In this document: one piece after another, positions 1 to 63,823 of the stretch
Layout of the letters: the number at the start of each line of letters is the position of its first letter
Numbering within the stretch: position 1 is the first letter of the stretch
Source: Pseudonocardia xinjiangensis
GTDB lineage: Bacteria > Actinomycetota > Actinomycetes > Mycobacteriales > Pseudonocardiaceae
Direction of reading: 5' to 3'
Length of the DNA stretch: 64,000 nt
Assembly (NCBI RefSeq): GCF_012911925.1
Contig: NZ_JAAXKY010000013.1
Coordinates: forward strand, 1-64,000
The notes under the pieces: model-generated
Seen by the model: only the letters and a program-made list of their open reading frames with translations
Database searches by the model: none
What the model was told of the DNA's origin: nothing
Position numbers and translations under genes: made by a program

Positions 1-3000
1 CGCCGACACCGCCACCCCACCGCCACCGCGGCCACCACCGCCCGAGCCGGACGCGTACGCGCTCGCCCGGTTCCCGCCGTACTCGGCCGACGCGGATGCC
101 CGCGCGCTGTAGGAGTGGCTGCAGCGGACGCCGGGGCTGCCGGTGCAGGACGCCGAGGCCTGCGCGCTCCCAGGCCGGACGGACACCGCCGCGCTGGTGG
201 CGACGTACCCGTTGCCGAAGGTTCCGGCACCCGACCCGGACGCCAGCGCCCGGGCGCTCGCTCCGCCCGCGGCGCCGGCGGCGGCGCTCCTGGCCCGGAA
301 GCTGTAGGAGCAGCGGGAACCCGCGCTGCCCTGGCACGCGGCTGCGGCGACCGCCCCGTTGGCCTCCGCCTGCGCCGCGGCGCTCGTGGCGCACCATCCG
401 GTGCCGGACCCGCCCGCGCCGCCGCAGCGGGCGGCCGCCGCGGCGCGGTTCCCGGCGGTCCGGCTGCTCGCGCTGCTCGTCGAGGAGAAGCTGTACCGGC
501 AGGTCGAGCCGGCACCGCCCTGGCATGCGGCGGAAGCCTGGGACCCGCCGGCGCCGGCACCGACGCGGCTGACGCCCGCGCACCGCCCGTCGGCCCCGGC
601 CGTGCAGTCGGTGCTCGACGCGGCCTTGCTGGTTCCGCCCGGCGCGGCTGCCTGCGCGCCGCCCCCGGTCCGGGTGCGGCACGCGATGCCGGTGCAGTCG
701 GCGGTGACCTCGGCGGCGCCGGCCATGGCGTTCCCGCCCGTGCCGACCTGGCAGACGCCGGCGGCCGCACAGGTCGCGTTCGACGCAGCGCGCACCGCCG
801 GGCCACCGACCGTCGTGGTCGTACTCGACGCGCGGGTCGCACAGCCGGTCGTGCTGCCGTCGTCGCAGGCCGCGGTGATCGAGGCGGAAGTGGTGGCGAA
901 CCGCTCGCCCGCCTTCGCGTCCGGCGCGGTGGTCGAGGTCGCCGTGGTCGCGCTGATCTGCGCCTGGCACGCGGTGGTGGCGTCGCAGCGGGTCTCGCCG
1001 GTGGCGGTGCTCCGGCTCTGCCGGCCGTCCGGCCCGGCGACGGACGCCGTGGTCCCGGTCGCGGAACCGGTGCAGCCGGCTTCCGGGCAGACGATCCGCG
1101 AAGCGGCCCGACCGGCACCCGAGACGCCCGCGACGGGCTTCGCGCTGTCGCCCGTGCCGGTGGTCCGGCCCGAGTCGCGCTGGCTGGACGCGGTCGCGTC
1201 GCTCGCCACCACGCAGCCGCTTTCGGCGGCGACGCAGCCCGCGGTCGTGTGCGCACGGCCCGGCGTGCCGTCCGTGCCGCCGGTCGTCACGGCAGCACAC
1301 CCGGTACCGGCGCACTGCGCGACCGCGCTCGACTGCGCGAGCGTCGCCGGCGCGTCCCTGACCGGCTGCGCGGCCAGGTCGGCGGCCTCGGTGGCTGCCT
1401 GGCGTGCCACCTTCGCTGCCTGCGCAGCGTCGGCGGCGGCCTTCTTCTGCTCGTCGGTGGCACCCGCCCGCCTCCCGGCGTGAGCGGCGTCGGCGGCTGC
1501 CTGCTCCGCCTGCTCGGCCTGGGCGGCCATCTGCTCGGCGGCGGTGTTCTGCTGCTCCGCGACGATGTCGGCCACGACCTGGCCGGATCCCGCGGAGGAG
1601 TCGGTCTGGACACGGCAGCCGCTCTGGTCACTCGTGCAGCTGCCGCTGGAGCTGGAGGTGCCCGTCGCCGGAGGGCCGCGCGCCCCGCCGGACCCGTTCA
1701 GGGAGTTCGGGCCGTCGGTGCCCGACGCGGACGTCCGCGCGGTGCCGGTGCAGGCGTTCCCGCTGCCGGCGCAGTCCATCGTGGCCGAGGCCGTCGTCCA
1801 GCTCGACGCACCCGGCACGGTCGGGCCGCCGGAGTTCGCGCTCGATCCCGGCGCCACCGGCACCGGCAGCGTCGCCGGCTGGTCCGGCCCCTCCGGACCG
1901 CCCTGCTGCCCGTCATCCTGCTGCTGGTCACCCGACCGGCCCGACTCGCCGGACGGCCCGATGGTGCCCTCGCTGACCGTGGCGTTCGCGGTCGAACGGG
2001 CCTGCACCAGCGGCGCGATGACGTTCGCGTCCGGGCCGGAGGAGGCGCCCGAGTTCGTCACCGCCTGGCAGATGCCGCCGGCGACGCCCTCGCAGGTGCC
2101 CTCGCTGCGCGAACCACGGGGGTCCGGTGACACCGCCGGATCGGTCGCGGTGGCCTCGCTGGTCACCTTCCCGTCGCAGCGGGTCTCACCCTCACAGGTC
2201 AGCGCCGCGCCGGCGGCCGACGCCGCGGACGGGCCCGGGATCAGCCGCGAGGTGGTGACGGGCTTCGGGTCGCCGGTCGCGTCCACCTGCGGTCGGTCAC
2301 CGGCCAGCGCCAGCGCGGCACCGGCCCCGGTCGAGGCGGTCGACACCGAGCGCACGTCGCATCCGCCCGTGCCGCCGTCGCAGGTCGCGCTACCGGTCGA
2401 GACACGCGGCGCTCCCCCGTTGACGGCACCGTCCCAGGCCTCGGTGCCGGTGGTCACCGCACCCGTGCAACCCGCGTCCGCACACTGCAGGCTCGCGCTC
2501 GACGACGCCGCCGAGCTCGGGCCACTGGTCGGCTGTCCCGCCACCGGCAGCCCGGTGTCGGGGTCGACGACCACGAAGTCCGGGGCCGAGGACGCGGCCG
2601 ATGTGGCCTCACCGGCGCACCCGCCGCCCGTCACGGTGCAGTCCGTGGTCGCGCGGGTGCCGCGGGCCTGCGGGGACACCGCCGTGTCGCGGGCGCTCGT
2701 CCCGGCCACGGCCGTGCCACCGCAGGTGCCGTCCGCGCCGTCGCAGCGCACCTGCGCCGACGCGTGGGAGACGCTCACCGGGCCGGACACCGCGGTCACA
2801 CCCTCGGCGGCCTCGGCCGGGTCGCGGTCGGCGACCGTGGTGTCCGCAGCAGTGGAGCAGTTCCCGCCCGCGCCGTGCACCGTGCACTTCGTGGTGGCCG
2901 TGCTGTCCCGCACGCCGACCACGTCGCCCGAGGCGGCGCCGGTCGTCGTGCTGATGGCAGCACCGCGGCACTCGGCGATGGCGCAGTCGGCCTGCGCCCC

Positions 3001-6000
3001 GGCCGTGCTGGACGCCGCCAGCTCCCGCTCGGGCGCGCCGTCCGCGGCGGCCCGCAAGCCGTCGGTGCGGGCGGCGGTGTCCGTGACCTCGGAGGCCGAC
3101 TCGGCACCGCAGGTGCCGGCGGTGGTCTCGCAGGTCGAGGAACCGCTCGTGGTCCGCACGGCCGGCTTGGCGCCGGCAGCCGCCGCGCCGGTGACCGTGC
3201 CGGCGGTCGTCGTGTCGGCCCTGCCGGTGCAGGCCGGGCCGTCGCCGCAGTCGACGTTCGCGCTCGCCGTGCTGGTGGCGAAGCCGTCGCCGTCGCTCGT
3301 GACGGTCGGCGCGTCGTCGTCGAAAGAGGCCGTCCGGACGTCGGCCTGCTCGTCAGTGGTGCTGCCGACCCGGGTGCCGCTGTCGGCGCGGCAGTCGCCG
3401 CCGGCCGCCTCACAGGTGGCCTCGCCGTTGCTCGTGCGCTCCGCGCCGGCCGTCAGGCCCTTCGCGGTGCCGGTGGTGGCGGCTCGCCCGGTACCGGTGC
3501 AGCCGGCGCCGGCGCCGGCGCAGTCGACCTCGACGGCCGCGGTGCTCGCGCCGCCCGCGTCCCGGTCCCCGGCGGTGTCGCCGTGGCCCGAGCCGGACTC
3601 CGCCGAGCAGCCCCCGTCCGCCACGGTGCACTCCGCGGTGCCGGTGGTGGTCGCCTCCGGCGCGGCCGGCTCGGTCGCAGCCGTCGCGGTGCGCTCGGTG
3701 GCGGCCCGGTCCGTCGCACTGGTGGTGGAGGCCGCGCGGCCGGTGCAGCCCGTCGCCCCGTCGGCGCACCTGGTCGCGCTTCGCGTCCGTGCACCATCGC
3801 CGGACCAGCGGTCGCCGACGGCCACGGAGCTGGACGTCCCGCAGCCCACGGCAGCCGCCTCGCAGCGCGCGGTGCTGCCGGCCCGGCGGGTGTCCTCGCC
3901 CTGCACCTGCGTGCTGGAGGCGATCTGCACGTCCGGCCGATCGGTCGCCCCACCGGAGCTGGAGCTGTCACAGACCCCCGCGGCCGTCGTGCACCCTGCC
4001 TCGGCCCCACCGGAGTCGGCGTACGTGTTCAGGTCGCACCGACCGGTGCACGACGCGGCCGAAGCGGTCTTCTCCCGCTTCGCCGTCGGGGGCGCGTCCG
4101 CGTCCTCCTGGGACGGGCCGCTGCTCTCCCCGCGACAGGCCCCGGCACCGGTTCGGCATGTGCTCTCTGCCATCTGCGGAGTCGCACGACTGGACTGCCC
4201 GCACCCGGTCGCATCACCCGTGCAGCGCGCCGACGCGGTGGTGACCGTGCCGTCCTCGGCGCGGCTCGACGTGCTGCTGCCACAGCCCTGGTCGGCGCCG
4301 GTCAGCGTGCAGGAGGCGGAGCCCTTCGACTCCCCCGCCGACGTCTGCACGCCACACCCGGACGACACTCCCGCCAACGCCACGCACCGGTCGGTGTCCT
4401 TCTCTCCGTCCGCGCCGCGGCTCACCGCCCCGCACGCCACGAACGCCCCGCTCGACCCGCAGCCGGCCGCCGAGCCCTCACCACCACGGCTGCGCGACGG
4501 CACCGAATCCGAGACGTCATTACCGGTGGCGGCCATCAGCTCGTCGGTCGCCTCGTACACCTCGTCGCGCTGCGACTCGTACGTGGCGACGTTCTGCGCG
4601 TGCGCCTTCTTCGTCACCGTGCCCGCGGCGACCTTCTTCTCCTCCGCCGCCAGCTGCTTCTCCCGCGCAGTCAGCGCACGGTGTCCGTCGACCACCTCGT
4701 CGACGAGCTCGGCCCGTTCCGGCGACAGCTCCGCGCGCTCCGCTGCGACCTGCTTCGCCAGCTGCTGGTGCTTCTTCTCGTCCTTCGCGTACGCGGCCTT
4801 GGTGACCTCACCCGAGGCGACCTTCTTCTTCTCCGCCGCCAACCGCGCCTTGCTCTGGTCGACCTTGATCCGGCCCTCGAGCACCCGCTCGGTCTGCTCG
4901 GAATCGTCGTGGTCCTGCCGCTCCCCGAACCGGCTCGCGGAGTAGCGGTACTCGTCCTCGCCGGAGGGAGGACCACGAGGATCCGCTGCCGAGGACACCC
5001 CCGGCCGCACCGCCGCACCACCGGCGCAGCCCCGGCTGCCCGCCTCGGTGCACGCCGCGCGCAGCGACTCCGTTGCCCGCAGCGCACCGGAGATCGACCG
5101 GTCACCGGAGTCCACCGCGCGCGTCCCGGACGCCGCCTGCTCACCTGACCGGGCGCCGGTGCGCGCCTGCTTCTCCGCGAGCGCGCCCTTCAGCGCGAGG
5201 TTCGTCGCCGCCGGTTGTCCCCTCCGATTGCGCTCCCCCGCCGCGCCCTCGGGAACACCTTTCGCGGTGCGCACTGCCCGGAGCGCATCGGCAGCCGACA
5301 ACGTGGTGTCCCGGGTCCCGGCGGTGCCCTTCGCCGCTGTGCGAGCAGCGGCGGTCCGGCCCGCATCGCCGGCCACCCGCTTCGCGCCGGCCGGTTCCGT
5401 GCCGGCGCGCTGTCCTGCCGTCCCGGCAGCCTGCCCGCGGGTCGCGGCGGCGCGTTCGGCGTCAACCGGCGCCGTCGCCGCTGCGCGGTCTCGACGGCCG
5501 GCCGGCTCGGCGCCCTTCCGGCCCACCGCGTCCGCGGCCCTCCCCGCGCGGTTCTTCGTCCCCGTCGGCTTCTCGGCAGCCTTGGCGGTCTTCCCCTTGC
5601 CGGCCTTCGGCACCGGCTGCTCCTCCGCCGCCGTCTTCCGGGGCGGCTTCTTCTGGGCCGGCCCCTTCACTGCAGCCTTCTTCGACGTGGGCTTCCGCTC
5701 CCCCGCCCGCTCGGCCGACCGGGGAGCGTCGCTCGAACCCGCCTGACCGTCCTTGGCAGCGACCGGCTTCGAGCCGGCCTTCTTGTCACCGGAGTTCTTC
5801 CCAGCAGCCTGCTGTCCGGCCTTCTTGGCCGGCTTCGGCTCGACCTTCTTGCTGTCGGACTTCTCAGCGGGCTTCTTCGCCGGCTTCGCCCCGGGCTTGG
5901 TGTCGCCGGGCTTGGCGTTGCCGGTCTTCGTGTCACCGGACTTCGTCGCCGTCTTCTTCTCGGGCTTGTTGTCCGGCTTCGACTCGACCTTCTTGGTGGT

Positions 6001-6318
6001 TGCCTGCTTCTCCGACTTCCCACCGCCCGACGAACCGGAACCGGAATTCGAACCACCATTACCACCAGCAGACTTGGTGTGACCTCCCTTCGACATCGCC
6101 TGCTGCGCAGCCACCGGAACCACCACCGCCGCCGAAGCGGGAGACGCTGCAAGGAACGCCGCCCCCACCCACAGCACCACCACAGCACCGGCCAGCCCGA
6201 GAAGCCACCGCAGCATCCACAGCAACCGCTCCAGCGGCGACGGTCGCAACCGCACGGGCGCAGCAGTACGCGCGGCGAGGCCCCCGGCCCCACCCCCGCG
6301 CACCGACACCACACCCAT
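1..6318 (-). CDS. Giant exported Lys/Pro-rich, coiled-coil, paired-cysteine repeat protein (3' end outside window)
   Basis: The frame is open for 2106 codons from ATG at 6318-6316 to base 1 with no stop, so the protein exceeds 2100 residues and its C-terminus is not seen. An AGGAG lies about 8 bases before the ATG. Residues 1-31 are basic, 32-57 hydrophobic, and ASPASA near 58-63 looks like a signal-peptidase site, so export is likely. Residues about 100-275 are Lys/Pro/Ala-rich (KPAKK-type motifs), 275-455 Ala-rich, and 465-595 a charged predicted coiled coil with two related copies. From about 615 onward, short C-x(3-8)-C motifs recur every 25-60 residues in Ser/Thr/Gly/Ala-rich sequence, interrupted by a helical Ala/Gln/Glu segment near 1577-1652. 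Long plus-strand frames here are shadows: codon third positions, signal sequence and ribosome site all favour the minus strand. I do not recognise the family. A cell-surface or wall-spanning structural role is inference. Confidence 0.85.
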   Translation of the reverse strand, partial: MGVVSVRGGGAGGLAARTAAPVRLRPSPLERLLWMLRWLLGLAGAVVVLWVGAAFLAASPASAAVVVPVAAQQAMSKGGHTKSAGGNGGSNSGSGSSGGGKSEKQATTKKVESKPDNKPEKKTATKSGDTKTGNAKPGDTKPGAKPAKKPAEKSDSKKVEPKPAKKAGQQAAGKNSGDKKAGSKPVAAKDGQAGSSDAPRSAERAGERKPTSKKAAVKGPAQKKPPRKTAAEEQPVPKAGKGKTAKAAEKPTGTKNRAGRAADAVGRKGAEPAGRRDRAAATAPVDAERAAATRGQAAGTAGQRAGTEPAGAKRVAGDAGRTAAARTAAKGTAGTRDTTLSAADALRAVRTAKGVPEGAAGERNRRGQPAATNLALKGALAEKQARTGARSGEQAASGTRAVDSGDRSISGALRATESLRAACTEAGSRGCAGGAAVRPGVSSAADPRGPPSGEDEYRYSASRFGERQDHDDSEQTERVLEGRIKVDQSKARLAAEKKKVASGEVTKAAYAKDEKKHQQLAKQVAAERAELSPERAELVDEVVDGHRALTAREKQLAAEEKKVAAGTVTKKAHAQNVATYESQRDEVYEATDELMAATGNDVSDSVPSRSRGGEGSAAGCGSSGAFVACGAVSRGADGEKDTDRCVALAGVSSGCGVQTSAGESKGSASCTLTGADQGCGSSTSSRAEDGTVTTASARCTGDATGCGQSSRATPQMAESTCRTGAGACRGESSGPSQEDADAPPTAKREKTASAASCTGRCDLNTYADSGGAEAGCTTAAGVCDSSSSGGATDRPDVQIASSTQVQGEDTRRAGSTARCEAAAVGCGTSSSVAVGDRWSGDGARTRSATRCADGATGCTGRAASTTSATDRAATERTATAATEPAAPEATTTGTAECTVADGGCSAESGSGHGDTAGDRDAGGASTAAVEVDCAGAGAGCTGTGRAATTGTAKGLTAGAERTSNGEATCEAAGGDCRADSGTRVGSTTDEQADVRTASFDDDAPTVTSDGDGFATSTASANVDCGDGPACTGRADTTTAGTVTGAAAAGAKPAVRTTSGSSTCETTAGTCGAESASEVTDTAARTDGLRAAADGAPERELAASSTAGAQADCAIAECRGAAISTTTGAASGDVVGVRDSTATTKCTVHGAGGNCSTAADTTVADRDPAEAAEGVTAVSGPVSVSHASAQVRCDGADGTCGGTAVAGTSARDTAVSPQARGTRATTDCTVTGGGCAGEATSAASSAPDFVVVDPDTGLPVAGQPTSGPSSAASSSASLQCADAGCTGAVTTGTEAWDGAVNGGAPRVSTGSATCDGGTGGCDVRSVSTASTGAGAALALAGDRPQVDATGDPKPVTTSRLIPGPSAASAAGAALTCEGETRCDGKVTSEATATDPAVSPDPRGSRSEGTCEGVAGGICQAVTNSGASSGPDANVIAPLVQARSTANATVSEGTIGPSGESGRSGDQQQDDGQQGGPEGPDQPATLPVPVAPGSSANSGGPTVPGASSWTTASATMDCAGSGNACTGTARTSASGTDGPNSLNGSGGARGPPATGTSSSSGSCTSDQSGCRVQTDSSAGSGQVVADIVAEQQNTAAEQMAAQAEQAEQAAADAAHAGRRAGATDEQKKAAADAAQAAKVARQAATEAADLAAQPVRDAPATLAQSSAVAQCAGTGCAAVTTGGTDGTPGRAHTTAGCVAAESGCVVASDATASSQRDSGRTTGTGDSAKPVAGVSGAGRAASRIVCPEAGCTGSATGTTASVAGPDGRQSRSTATGETRCDATTACQAQISATTATSTTAPDAKAGERFATTSASITAACDDGSTTGCATRASSTTTTVGGPAVRAASNATCAAAGVCQVGTGGNAMAGAAEVTADCTGIACRTRTGGGAQAAAPGGTSKAASSTDCTAGADGRCAGVSRVGAGAGGSQASAACQGGAGSTCRYSFSSTSSASSRTAGNRAAAAARCGGAGGSGTGWCATSAAAQAEANGAVAAAACQGSAGSRCSYSFRARSAAAGAAGGASARALASGSGAGTFGNGYVATSAAVSVRPGSAQASASCTGSPGVRCSHSYSARASASAEYGGNRASAYASGSGGGGRGGGGVAVSA

Positions 6319-6700
6319 GACAGATGACTCCTGACGTCACCGAAGAGACAGCCGCTCAGGGCCCCGCACCAGCAGGGACACGGCCGGAATGAAGACACAC
6401 AGACGCACACCGGAGGTGTCACACGTCGCGCCTGGGGCAGCGACCCGCGACCGACCTCGCACCGCCACTCCCCCGGCTGGTTCGCCCGTCGCGAGCCGTC
6501 AGCGACCGACGAGAACCTCGTGGAGTGATCGACACGAAGAGTGCTGTCCGAGGGTGAACGCCAGTGGTTGCGGCGGTGCCATCGTGGCGACACGTCGATG
6601 ACGATCGGGCGTCCTCGCAGAAGGGGTGGGGTTCGTCGCAGATGCTGTGGGCTCTGCGAGGAACGCAGTCGGCGCGCGTTCACACGGCCGCAATGCGCGT
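6319..6700. other. Intergenic region between the giant gene and the MocR gene, no gene seen
   Basis: This 382-bp stretch must hold the promoter of the giant minus-strand gene. The short frames in it lack ribosome sites and have shadow-like Arg/Pro composition. A small ACACC-GGA-GGTGT dyad sits at 6407-6419. I see no RNA gene. Confidence 0.5.
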
Positions 6701-57847: not shown

Positions 57848-60361
57848 GTGCTGGCCACTTACATCCGGAACATCGGGCCCTTCCGGTTCCTGGTGGCTCT
57901 CCTCGCCACGTCGGTCATCACGTTCAACCTCGTCACGCTCGACTTCCAGTTCGCCGACCAGATCTCGAGCGTCGTCGCCGCCCTCCTCGCCGTCCTGTCC
58001 CTCGGTGGACTCGGCAACCCGTCACCGAAGCTGACGATCGAGGAGGGCATCCGGAAGATCGCGGAGGAGGTCCGCGACGTCTGGAAGGAGCAGGAGCGGA
58101 AGCGCGGCCTGAGCGACACGTCGTTCATACCGCTCCGGGTGAAGATCATCTCCGGGCTCGACGCGAGGCACGGCGAGGTCTCCGCGTTCCTGGCGACCCC
58201 GGCGAAGTCGCCACTGTGGAACCTCGAGGACATGCGCCGGTCGTGTGCGGCTGTGGTCTACCGGTCCGACGTCCGCCGGGTCGTCATCTTCGGCGAGGAG
58301 GGCACCGGGAAGTCCACGCTCGCGGTCGCCCTCACGCTCGGACTGATCGAGCGCTACTTCACGAAGCGCGGCGACCTCGTCCCCCTCTGCTTGTCGCTCA
58401 ACTCCTGGGATGCCCGCCGGGACTCCTTCGAGGACTGGCTCAACCGCCGGCTCGAGACCACCTACCCGATCCTGCGGTCCTTCCGTCGTGGTCCGGACGG
58501 GATCGCGCGGACGCTCACCAACTCTGAACAGTTCGTGTTCGTGCTCGACAGCCTCGACGAGATCGCCGACGGCAGCGACGTCACAGGTGCCCTCCAGCGG
58601 ATCGAGGAGTTCTTCCCGGAGCGCCAGCGTCTCTGCATCCTGGCCCGGGACCACATCTACGAGAGAGTGCGGCTGCGCAACACGGCGAAGCTGCGTCTGT
58701 GCCGATCGACACGGGACGACGTCCGGCGCTATCTCGGGGCGCTCTCGGCGCGGGACCAGGCAGACGGCGGTCTCGACGCACTCCGCGCGGCGATCCGATC
58801 CGGTCGCGCGGCGCATCGCTCGGCGATCGTGAGGGTGCTGCGGACACCGCTGTACCTGCGCTCGGCGTACAACGCGATCATCGACGAGAACGTCACCGCG
58901 CACGAGTTGCTGGACACCGCCGAGCAGGGCGGCGAGAGGGGCCTGAAGGAGCGCCTGCTGGCGGCCGAGGTGGATCGGGCCTTCACCAGGGCACCGATCC
59001 TGCAGAAGCCCCGGGCCCTGTACTGGTTGATGTACATGGCGCGGGACATGGAGCGTAGGAACTACGTCTCGTACGCGTGGTGGCGGGTGGGCGACGCGAT
59101 ACCGCGAGCAGCGCTGGCAGCAATGGCCGCGAGCCTGATCGCGCCGGCATATCTCCTGGCGATCGTCATGCCCGTCGGGCTCACCCGTGGACTCGCGATC
59201 GGCGCAGGCACCGGCGCGATCCTGGGGATTCTCCGGGGCTACCCGGTCGGCCTGCGTCACGTCGCCGTCGCGGCACCGATCGCCTGGGTCGAGGTGTTCA
59301 TCCTCGCCGTGCTGGTCCATCCGCCGGTCCAGGCCGTGGCTGATGCGACGCAGCTGGCCGTGGCGATCGGGCTGGTCCTGCTGCTGAAGGAACGGTTGGT
59401 GGTCGACAGGCCGACGGTTGCCGCGCTGACGGCCGTCGGGATCGCCGCGGTCACCGCCCTGGTCGTCTCGGTGGTGAGCCAGGTCACGGGCCTCCAGGAC
59501 CAGTACCGGAGCCCGCCGGACATCGTCATCGGCGTCCTGTTCGGCATCGGCATCGCCGTCATCGCCGCACGCCTGCTCATCGAGCGCCCACGCACCCAGA
59601 TGCGGGCCTCACGAATCCGGCTGACCCCCGCCCCGCGCATCACCTCACCGATCTGGCCGATCCTCGCCGCCGTACTGCCGGCGAGCCTGATCGGGGTGGG
59701 CGGAGGCATCGGCGGCACAATCCGGTACGGCCAGGAGTACGGCCTCAGCCTGATGTACTTCTTCGGTCTCACCATCGGGGTCCCGGTCGGCCTGATCGGC
59801 GGACTCGTCAAATGGCTCAGCCTGCCGCTCGCTGCCGGCAGTCCGCTGGAGGGATCGTCGCCGTCGTCGGTGGAGGGGGCCCCGCTCAGAAGCGATCGGA
59901 TCGTCGCACTCCTGAGCATCGTAAGCCTTGCGACCGCGGCCACGGGAACGATCGCGATCGCCATCAGCTACCTGACCGGGCCGCTGGCGGTCATCCATGC
60001 CGTCAACTCGCCCGGCTTCTCTCTCGAACCAGCTCAGGGAATCCTGTACGGACTCACCATGGGCGTGATCGTGGCGTGTTTCTTCACGGCCTGGCCGACG
60101 TATTTCATCGCCCACATGTGGCTGCTCTGTCTGGGCCGCCGGTATCCGTTGCAGCACCAGACGTTCCTCGACGCGCTGGTCAATGCGAACCTGATGCGGA
60201 ACGAAGGACCATTGCTCTACTTCCGGCACCGGGAACTGCAGTCCTACCTCGGGCGGACCACCCGGACGGTCAACCCGGCAGTTGCCGCTGATCAAGAGGC
60301 CGGATCTTCTGCGACGTCCAGTACTCCTCCAGCGAGGAGATCCGTCCGTCCTCGAACGTGA
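57848..60361 (+). CDS. Membrane NACHT-domain STAND ATPase
   Basis: The 837-residue protein has two N-terminal membrane segments (about 8-60) and a NACHT ATPase (about 145-300) with P-loop VVIFGEEGTGKSTLAVALTL, Walker B FVFVLDSLDEIADG and sensor CILARDH. A helical region follows, then about eight to ten membrane helices from residue 418 to 770, ending in YFRHRELQSYLGR, a motif common at the end of actinobacterial NACHT proteins. GTG 57848 follows AAAAGGA. STAND ATPases act in signalling or antiphage defence; whether this one does is unknown. The last 92 bp overlap the convergent SnoaL gene. Confidence 0.87.
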   Translation: MLATYIRNIGPFRFLVALLATSVITFNLVTLDFQFADQISSVVAALLAVLSLGGLGNPSPKLTIEEGIRKIAEEVRDVWKEQERKRGLSDTSFIPLRVKIISGLDARHGEVSAFLATPAKSPLWNLEDMRRSCAAVVYRSDVRRVVIFGEEGTGKSTLAVALTLGLIERYFTKRGDLVPLCLSLNSWDARRDSFEDWLNRRLETTYPILRSFRRGPDGIARTLTNSEQFVFVLDSLDEIADGSDVTGALQRIEEFFPERQRLCILARDHIYERVRLRNTAKLRLCRSTRDDVRRYLGALSARDQADGGLDALRAAIRSGRAAHRSAIVRVLRTPLYLRSAYNAIIDENVTAHELLDTAEQGGERGLKERLLAAEVDRAFTRAPILQKPRALYWLMYMARDMERRNYVSYAWWRVGDAIPRAALAAMAASLIAPAYLLAIVMPVGLTRGLAIGAGTGAILGILRGYPVGLRHVAVAAPIAWVEVFILAVLVHPPVQAVADATQLAVAIGLVLLLKERLVVDRPTVAALTAVGIAAVTALVVSVVSQVTGLQDQYRSPPDIVIGVLFGIGIAVIAARLLIERPRTQMRASRIRLTPAPRITSPIWPILAAVLPASLIGVGGGIGGTIRYGQEYGLSLMYFFGLTIGVPVGLIGGLVKWLSLPLAAGSPLEGSSPSSVEGAPLRSDRIVALLSIVSLATAATGTIAIAISYLTGPLAVIHAVNSPGFSLEPAQGILYGLTMGVIVACFFTAWPTYFIAHMWLLCLGRRYPLQHQTFLDALVNANLMRNEGPLLYFRHRELQSYLGRTTRTVNPAVAADQEAGSSATSSTPPARRSVRPRT

Positions 60362-63025: not shown

Positions 63026-63823
63026 TCAGTCCTCCGCAGGCGCCGACGTGCCGGCGACGTGCTCGCTGATCCAGTCCGTGAGCACGTCCGCCCGGGCCGT
63101 CGTCTCCTCGGAGCTGTGGGGGCAGGTAGGCCCGGAGATCTCCGTGGCGACGAGCTCCGGCTCCCCGTCGACCTGGGTGAAGAACGGCGCCCCGGAGTCG
63201 AAGGCGCAGGCGCTGGTCAGCAGGTGCGGGCCGGTCGCCTCGATGAACAGCTCGGCGTCGGTGACGCGGGTGACGACGAACTCCGCGGTCTGCAGCTGGT
63301 CGGGCCGGTGGGTCAGGTCGGCGACACCGTCCGCCGAACCCCAGCCTGCCAGCCGGACGGCGTCCCCCGACTCCGGCCGTTCTGTCCGGATCGCGAGCGG
63401 CTCGATCGACTCGACCGGTTTCGCCAGCTCGGCGAGCGCGACGTCGACCCCCGGGTGCTGGACGATGTCGACGACCTCGACGGTCGTTCCCCCGGAGCCC
63501 GACAACGTGTCCCGCCCCAGCGTCACCGTGATCGGGTAGCGAGGCGGGCCGCTGACCCGGGTGCGGTCGCCGTCGTGGGCGCAGTGGCCCGCGGTGACGA
63601 CCCACTTCGGAGCGATCAACGCGCCGGAGCACGCGCTGCTGTACTCGGTGCCGTCGGCGCGGACGATCTTCGGCATGGAGAGCACGGCGACGAAGGGGTA
63701 GGCGCCCTCGGGCGCGTCCTCGCCGTGCGCGATCGCAAAGGCCGGAACGGTGGTGGTCACGATCACCGCGGCGGCCGCCGCTCCGGCCACGGCGAGCGCG
63801 GCCACGTACTTCCTCAAGGACAA
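63026..63823 (-). CDS. Secreted trypsin-like (S1) serine protease
   Basis: The 265-residue protein has a signal peptide (MSLRKYVAALAVAGAAAAAV, cleavage near AFAIAHG), so the mature start would be near IAHGEDAPEG. His is in VVTAGHCAH, Asp in PGVDVALAEL and Ser in CAFDSGAPFF. The usual GDSGGP reads FDSGAP, so the oxyanion region is altered though Ser is kept. It faces the VWA gene tail to tail with a 42-bp gap. Confidence 0.88.
   Translation of the reverse strand: MSLRKYVAALAVAGAAAAAVIVTTTVPAFAIAHGEDAPEGAYPFVAVLSMPKIVRADGTEYSSACSGALIAPKWVVTAGHCAHDGDRTRVSGPPRYPITVTLGRDTLSGSGGTTVEVVDIVQHPGVDVALAELAKPVESIEPLAIRTERPESGDAVRLAGWGSADGVADLTHRPDQLQTAEFVVTRVTDAELFIEATGPHLLTSACAFDSGAPFFTQVDGEPELVATEISGPTCPHSSEETTARADVLTDWISEHVAGTSAPAED

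Follow-up and report, generated by a model that had tools for sequence, protein, structure and literature searches.

Organisation of the locus

The window analysed in this study comprises 64,000 nucleotides of Pseudonocardia xinjiangensis, i.e. bases 1-64000 of contig NZ_JAAXKY010000013.1 (here C44; 74,032 bp) of a genome of 7.76 Mb in 308 contigs. Its left end is occupied by the front part of a giant gene on the minus strand that carries a long series of conserved cysteine pairs and presumably encodes an exported protein; the remainder of the gene, probably located on a second contig, leads into a long region free of cysteine that we refer to as cargo. The frame starts with an ATG at position 6318, comprises 2106 codons and is open to base 1, as the original prediction had stated, and it lacks a stop because contig C44 begins at base 1, a limit of the assembly. 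The GC content at codon positions 1, 2 and 3 amounts to 0.67, 0.71 and 0.90. The following features were assigned:

1..6318, minus: front part of the giant gene (2106 codons), truncated at base 1, where the contig ends
6127..6318, minus: residues 1-64, signal-like start with hydrophobic stretches at residues 31 and 51; ASPASAA at its end is a possible cleavage site (by eye)
4978..6126, minus: residues 65-447, basic linker rich in Lys, Ala, Gly and Ser, fast evolving, with a cysteine pair at residues 423/431 (5026-5052)
4966..4977, minus: RGPP, residues 448-451, directly ahead of the coiled coil
4522..4899, minus: residues 474-599, coiled-coil-like segment (by eye)
121..4461, minus: residues 620-2066, repeats rich in Ser, Thr, Gly and Ala with 36 cysteine pairs, each pair at the turn of a predicted beta-hairpin
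1519..2808, minus: residues 1171-1600, modelled with AlphaFold2; residues 1171-1345 (2284-2808) were modelled alone
1669..1680, minus: RGPP, residues 1547-1550, within the repeats; invariant in 25/25 aligned relatives
1354..1584, minus: residues 1579-1655, a GQVVAD motif, then an Ala/Gln/Glu-rich helix inserted between repeats
6319..6609, minus: about 290 bp upstream of the start, part of a 78% DNA match (6009-6609) to a P. alaniniphila gene
C68:15585-3676: probable C-terminal 3,970 codons of the window gene (L189), stop at C68:3673-3675; contig of 15,586 bp

The translation of the window frame contains 74 cysteines, and the 72 past residue 600 follow a strict alternation of short (4-11) and long (15-101) gaps, which gives 36 pairs in addition to the one in the linker. 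The approximately three dozen pairs counted originally are thus correct for the window and too few for the whole gene (about 60, see below). The signal sequence, the basic region and the coiled coil described at that time were likewise recognised, with two transmembrane-like stretches at residues 31 and 51; signal sequence and coiled coil were assigned by eye. No Pfam family (E < 0.05; best E 0.07) and no NCBIfam family was found for the window protein, in agreement with the lack of a family assignment in the original prediction.

A query taken from the closest relative and beginning where the window frame ends led to contig C68 of the same genome, where a frame is open from the contig end (77% identity). 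This frame is probably the remainder of the window gene, since it is homologous and both pieces end at contig ends. Between C44 and C68 about 160-220 codons with 8-10 cysteines are missing, depending on the alignment; the two alignments disagree because the repeats resemble each other. The whole protein would probably comprise about 6,240-6,300 amino acids with about 60 cysteine pairs, of which the window holds the front third; linker, coiled coil and repeats account for about 46-47%. All 38 cysteines of the C68 part are located within its first 623 residues and none is present in the last 3,347. The RGPP motif occurs four times in this part, the last copy within the final 11 residues, directly behind a PP2C-like domain (PP2C_2, E 9.9e-5, 22.4 bits, below the cut-off of 24; a full-length scan gave nothing). 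A sorting motif of the LPxTG type was absent from the window and C68 parts (one LPPTA is present), the stretch in the assembly gap being outside this search. On the strand of this frame, 519 bp separate the probable stop from the next coding-like frame.

The match between the window gene and its closest relative covers the 5' end and extends 290 bp upstream, but includes no neighbouring gene. Judged from this DNA, the front of a giant gene can move.

Conservation and selection

The closest relative, which is 77% identical in 2,100 aligned residues, has retained all 74 cysteines of the window protein, and the ratio of non-synonymous to synonymous substitutions (dN/dS; Nei-Gojobori, simple values without correction for base composition) was 0.46 overall and 0.33-0.45 in the repeats. 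Because of these two results the frame must be regarded as more than a chance opening. The original prediction had staked itself on conserved cysteine pairs and on selection for this frame; the pairs are conserved in relatives and the frame is under purifying selection. The dN/dS varied along the chain, from 0.29 (residues 1-70) and 0.65 (basic linker) to 0.23 (residues 421-610, including the coiled coil), and in the C68 part from 0.42 (tail of the repeats) and 0.53 (post-repeat region) to 0.44-0.56 (cargo). For the relatives in the genomes of P. kunmingensis DSM 45301 (G004) and G011 it climbs to about 1 in the middle of the protein, where an alignment is hardly possible.

A complete paralogue is present in the same genome as a single frame of 7,049 codons from ATG to stop (C233:21813-42962; L009, L012, L013). 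It is 52% identical to the window protein, and 67 of the 74 cysteines align with a cysteine of the paralogue. A frame of 150 codons begins 18 bp after the paralogue's stop, and small matches were seen on contigs C268, C288, C36, C111 and C158 of this genome.

The search for homologues with conserved cysteine spacing was positive: all 10 cysteines of a stretch of 374 residues were invariant in 25/25 relatives. Residues 1171-1600 were then compared with 39 relatives, giving 312 combinations of pair and relative if two columns of slack are allowed; both cysteines were kept in 304 and both lost in 8 (one of these, L091, in a broken frame), and a single loss was never observed. Across the whole front (22 rows, with two giants entered twice, i.e. 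20 distinct) the mean conservation of cysteine was 0.96, compared with 0.57 for the adjoining next residue (glycine), and in strict columns 36 single cysteine losses were counted against 154 expected under independence.

Predicted structure of the cysteine-pair region

Both AlphaFold2 models consist of long beta-hairpins with the cysteine pairs located at the turns. The mean predicted local distance difference test score was 80.6 and the predicted template modelling score 0.81 for residues 1171-1600 with 39 relatives; the values for residues 1171-1345 alone were 86.8 and 0.80. Conservation and models together support the presence of many local disulfides in the repeats, and the region can be described as a stalk whose hairpins are predicted to form a sheet held by local disulfide clips, perhaps as a sheet or tube made of a single chain. 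Fold searches revealed no confident relative. The highest-ranking structures, beta-barrels and large pores, had low scores (Z at most 7.8 for the 430-residue model and 4.9 for the 175-residue model), and a viral library gave nothing at E 0.001 or better. For a model of four hairpins the top Foldseek rows were large beta-barrel pores (8 rows, E 6.8e-5 to 9.4e-4), with template modelling scores of at most about 0.3 and Z below 5 in a second look. These predicted fold matches are no evidence for a common origin with beta-barrel pores or for a role as a pore.

Distribution and size of the family

With the 374-residue stretch as query, matches were obtained in 15 of 60 genomes, namely in 15/36 of Pseudonocardia (own genome included; the match in G015 is weak, E 6.5e-4) and in 0/24 of others of the order. 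Two peptide patterns, applied to named genomes, yielded 46 loci, every one in Pseudonocardia. A profile run against 397 genomes of the order recovered the own genome; the two other matches were weak (an 86-residue frame with a stop, E 2e-5, and another with E 3e-4) and were taken as low complexity. A paralogue module of 1,101 residues, used as a class-wide query against 296 genomes, returned the own genome and two weak short matches. Among the genomes sampled, the family is known only from Pseudonocardia, and within this genus giants are common, which corrects the original view of secreted actinomycete proteins of such a size as rare.

The shortest frame around a family match has about 400 codons and comes from a draft genome, the longest has 58,239 codons, and the fetched DNA bears out both the latter value, from stop to stop, in P. 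eucalypti DSM 45351 (G012) and 21,891 codons in a one-contig genome (G033). On contig C3 of P. eucalypti (1,053,233 bp) 15 coding-like frames of more than 3,500 codons cover 813,513 bp or 77%; at either end of the contig one frame is truncated. Two pairs of adjacent frames, each pair on one strand, are located at G012:C3:474915-538875 (16,886 and 4,483 codons) and 678481-738120 (14,950 and 4,701 codons) and may each represent one giant gene interrupted by a frameshift or an error; this assembly is listed at 97% completeness and 7% contamination. Four giants of 11,677, 11,939, 20,151 and 21,891 codons have one downstream neighbour in common, as judged by eye.

The cargo

Past residue 3700 the cargo of 25 giants contained 171 cysteines in 301,770 residues, compared with 2,656-3,199 expected from backgrounds of 0.88% (9,369 residues of hand-listed window frames that passed a filter on GC at third codon positions) and 1.06%. 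The 25 are distinct giants, with one cut giant taken whole, and the two P. eucalypti neighbour pairs may each be one broken gene. In the largest frame the cysteine-rich zone stops at 6% of the length; past residue 6000, 4 cysteine codons occur in 52,239, against 3,403 and 741 in the other forward frames. A few giants retain small cysteine clusters in the cargo or near the end. The same part of the 58,239-codon frame (G012:C3) differs from ordinary window proteins also in Trp (1.6-fold), Lys (1.6-fold) and Ser (0.7-fold).

Pfam matches in the last 48,609 of the 58,239 codons comprised MFS_1 (in 5 of 15 pieces), GGDEF, TauE, NUDIX, MarR, FHA, PP2C_2 and others; in 16 pieces from three other giants NUDIX (4), SecA_DEAD (2), cation efflux (2), Trypsin_2 (2), rhomboid (1) and others were found. 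The last 990 residues of 10 giants gave a Pfam match in 7 cases, all differing, and none in 3. Such terminal matches included MFS, Trypsin_2, DUF3990 with NUDIX, PP2C_2, LysM, HTH families and Amidoligase_2; DUF3990, which we take to be ADP-ribosyltransferase-like, is the one toxin-like terminal domain. LysM domains were present in some members of the family, and DUF4781 was matched in the paralogue and in one other piece. An interpretation of the giants as arrays of toxins was considered and rejected, as the MFS, GGDEF and MarR modules of the largest frame speak against it.

Segments recur at differing positions across giants. Within the terminal region of the largest giant, one part recurs in three other giants of P. 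eucalypti (52-56% identity) and another matches a separate gene-sized frame (37%). In the 21,891-codon giant (G033:C1:4045526-4111198; L057-L060) a SecA-like ATPase domain is present in the cargo, and a module of about 1,650 residues occurs twice with 59% identity. Relatives have, as read from their translations, the same front and a different, partly exchanged and nearly cysteine-free cargo. The assumption of a surface scaffold with local disulfides in the original prediction is accordingly to be divided: the disulfides are backed by pairs that are conserved, lost together and placed at predicted turns, and a mainly scaffolding protein is not supported, because linker, coiled coil and repeats take up less than half of this protein and the cysteine-rich zone 6% of the largest relative, the rest being modular cargo with hardly any cysteine.

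RGPP motifs and trypsin-like peptidases

No tetrapeptide in the cargo of the 25 giants exceeded its expected number more strongly than RGPP (162 copies, 11.2 expected). In 12 giants it occurred 80 times against 5.7 expected in the coding frame (14-fold) and at 0.8-1.3-fold in the other five frames; it is encoded by 57 different DNA 12-mers, and its density in giants is 11 times the value for ordinary frames on the same contig, where 2 copies occur in 41,732 residues. RAPP, perhaps a variant of RGPP, was over-represented in the same cargo as well (67 against 17).

By a hand tally, a Trypsin_2 domain is located inside 22 of 41 giants from seven genomes: 10/17 in P. eucalypti, 3/5 in G033, 2/2 in P. 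alaniniphila Y-16303 (G008), 2/6 in G011, 2/2 in P. kunmingensis, 3/7 in G021 and 0/2 in the own genome. All 21 trypsin domains of P. eucalypti contig C3 are found in or beside giants, which fill 77% of this contig. Five giants of this species are followed within 2.5 kb by a trypsin-like gene, three of them lacking an internal domain, and the order behind these five is a gene of 217-250 residues and then the trypsin-like gene. Their ends are located as follows:

G012:C3, plus: ends near 59280, 245819 and 328346
G012:C3, minus: ends near 68607 and 815160

The His and Ser motifs were visible in 20 of 21 in-giant trypsin stretches that were read (of 37 listed) and in 6/6 downstream copies. The bond between Arg and Gly is cleavable by trypsin-type enzymes, and the trypsin-like peptidases may cut the giants at RGPP. 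Distant from the giant, a Trypsin_2 match (E 2.8e-8) at 63161-63631 (minus) of the window lies in a frame of 271 residues.

Proposed function of the giants

The anatomy of the giants is well supported: for the window gene the sequence establishes a single frame under purifying selection with about 60 conserved cysteine pairs, followed by 3,347 residues free of cysteine. Export, disulfides in the real protein, cleavage, purpose and an action on neighbours are what we infer from this anatomy. With somewhat more confidence than doubt we read the giants as exported modular proteins with a disulfide-clipped stalk and swappable cargo that are perhaps cut between the arginine and GPP of RGPP. The signal-like start would export the chain into oxidising surroundings; basic linker, coiled coil and disulfide-clipped hairpins would make up the stalk, so that the scaffold would serve as a carrier. 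Trypsin-like peptidases, either inside many giants or encoded just downstream of some, may then cut the cargo after the arginine of RGPP, and the cysteine-free modules would be released or presented at or beyond the surface. The purge of cysteine from the cargo would be explained by the mispairing that a stray cysteine would cause in oxidising surroundings, and since many modules belong to types dependent on nucleotides or membranes, the modules may exert their activity on or inside neighbouring cells. A more far-reaching version, which we consider tentatively as a possibility, is an extracellular polyprotein: up to 58,239 codons would be translated into one chain behind the stalk, and trypsin-like peptidases in or beside the giants would cut it at RGPP into many enzymes and membrane proteins, free of cysteine and active outside the cell or in its neighbours, with the genus keeping arsenals of such chains and exchanging their modules.

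Several results weigh against the reading of exported, cleaved modules. RGPP is only weakly shifted out of the shared segments (52% inside, 64±4% at random), and its median distance to a segment end is 38, with 53±7 expected and some of 300 simulations reaching 33. Neither the window gene nor the paralogue holds a recognised trypsin domain, so that the own genome would need a peptidase acting in trans, and one in-giant trypsin copy, that of the 21,891-codon giant, looks degenerate. The cargo relatives, as far as the matches tell, are often ordinary cytoplasmic or membrane families, and it is difficult to envisage how chains rich in membrane helices would be exported. The joining of C68 to the window gene is probable and rests on homology and contig-end position, not on reads.

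Among the rival readings, that of a giant polymorphic toxin ranks first; it has the architecture in common with the favoured one: the stalk would display the chain, the variable C-terminal module would be a toxin delivered on contact and the inner modules would aid delivery without any general release. A conserved front with variable ends fits this proposal, as do the giant that ends in DUF3990 and NUDIX, the 150-codon frame close behind the paralogue and the giant actinobacterial proteins joining several toxin domains that are described in the accessible part of PMC3482391. We nevertheless consider it doubtful, because many modules are transporters or regulators and not known toxins, the next coding-like frame lies as far as 519 bp past the C68 stop, and no steady immunity-like neighbour was found: the genes downstream of 25 giants differ, apart from the 217-250-residue gene behind five P. 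eucalypti giants. Alternatively, the chain might stay intact on the cell as a coat or adhesin with structural or binding modules. The repeat stalk and the LysM domains of some members are in line with such a role, and a location at the cell surface is assumed for other giant bacterial proteins, according to the portions of PMC10066038 and PMC12863079 at hand; enzyme-like and transporter modules, the catalytic motifs kept in most trypsin-like copies and the absence of LPxTG from the window and C68 parts make it unlikely.

Two further explanations deny the cargo or the frame a function. Captured genes could have been fused in frame behind an exported stalk and now be decaying, a form of accretion for which the ordinary gene families within the largest frame, the very unequal lengths at apparently one locus and the middle parts of two near relatives that cannot be aligned could be cited. 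We judge it very improbable, since both the near-total loss of cysteine and the enrichment of RGPP are confined to the coding frame, catalytic motifs are kept and the dN/dS of the cargo is 0.44-0.56. A chance or antisense frame in GC-rich DNA is barely conceivable: long shadow frames do occur, for example one of 1,133 codons on the plus strand over the same DNA, but conserved cysteines, purifying selection and homologues in many genomes argue against an artefact.

If translated whole, the largest giants would rank with the largest proteins known from cultured bacteria; larger records reportedly exist, with about 85,000 residues in Omnitrophota and about 45,000 in an alga. By keeping paired and forbidden cysteines apart within one chain, the family offers a natural experiment on oxidative folding whose traces are legible in the sequence. 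Should the RGPP motifs be cleavage sites, the giants would parallel, in bacteria and at very large scale, the polyproteins of viruses, and new N-termini beginning with GPP are predicted. These strains would make it possible to test how a cell exports chains that contain membrane helices and run to tens of thousands of residues.

Comparison with known systems

Pseudonocardia has been studied for its antibiotics and its symbiosis with insects and plants. No description of the present family was found among the open-licence papers listed, where the finds concerned polyketides, polyketide synthase genes and lectin-like bacteriocins, and the word Pseudonocardia does not occur in the main text of a survey of huge proteins (PMC11573180). 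The giants resemble polymorphic toxin systems, as portrayed in the accessible part of PMC3482391, in the conserved exported front, the variable C-terminal modules, the chain-linked peptidases and the exchange of modules. They differ from these systems in a stalk of cysteine-pair hairpins that matches neither Pfam nor NCBIfam, in the cysteine-free cargo and the RGPP marks, in lengths of up to 58,239 codons and in that no steady immunity neighbour was found.

Omnitrophota and Apilactobacillus giants are likened to the family in size only and are set beside it by description. For Omnitrophota the accessible text of PMC10066038 gives single frames of tens of thousands of codons (39,678 residues in V. 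archaeovorus) with membrane helices and few annotated domains, as in the present family; they belong to another phylum, and a cysteine-pair stalk, a cysteine purge or RGPP is not described in that text. Giant1-5 of Apilactobacillus share with the family the occurrence of several giant extracellular proteins per genome and a beta-rich N-terminal domain, whereas they comprise 3,000-8,000 residues, are built of a beta-solenoid and a helical rod, and the word cysteine is absent from the available text (PMC12863079). In the predicted stalk, long hairpins would be arranged side by side as in the large beta-barrel pores of pleurotolysin, complement and gasdermin. Finally, exported proteins of Gram-positive bacteria tend to exclude cysteine or to contain even numbers of it and avoid unpaired cysteines (Daniels 2010, as cited in the part of PMC9974433 at hand); in the present family both rules appear to act within one chain, with paired cysteines in the stalk and almost none in the cargo.

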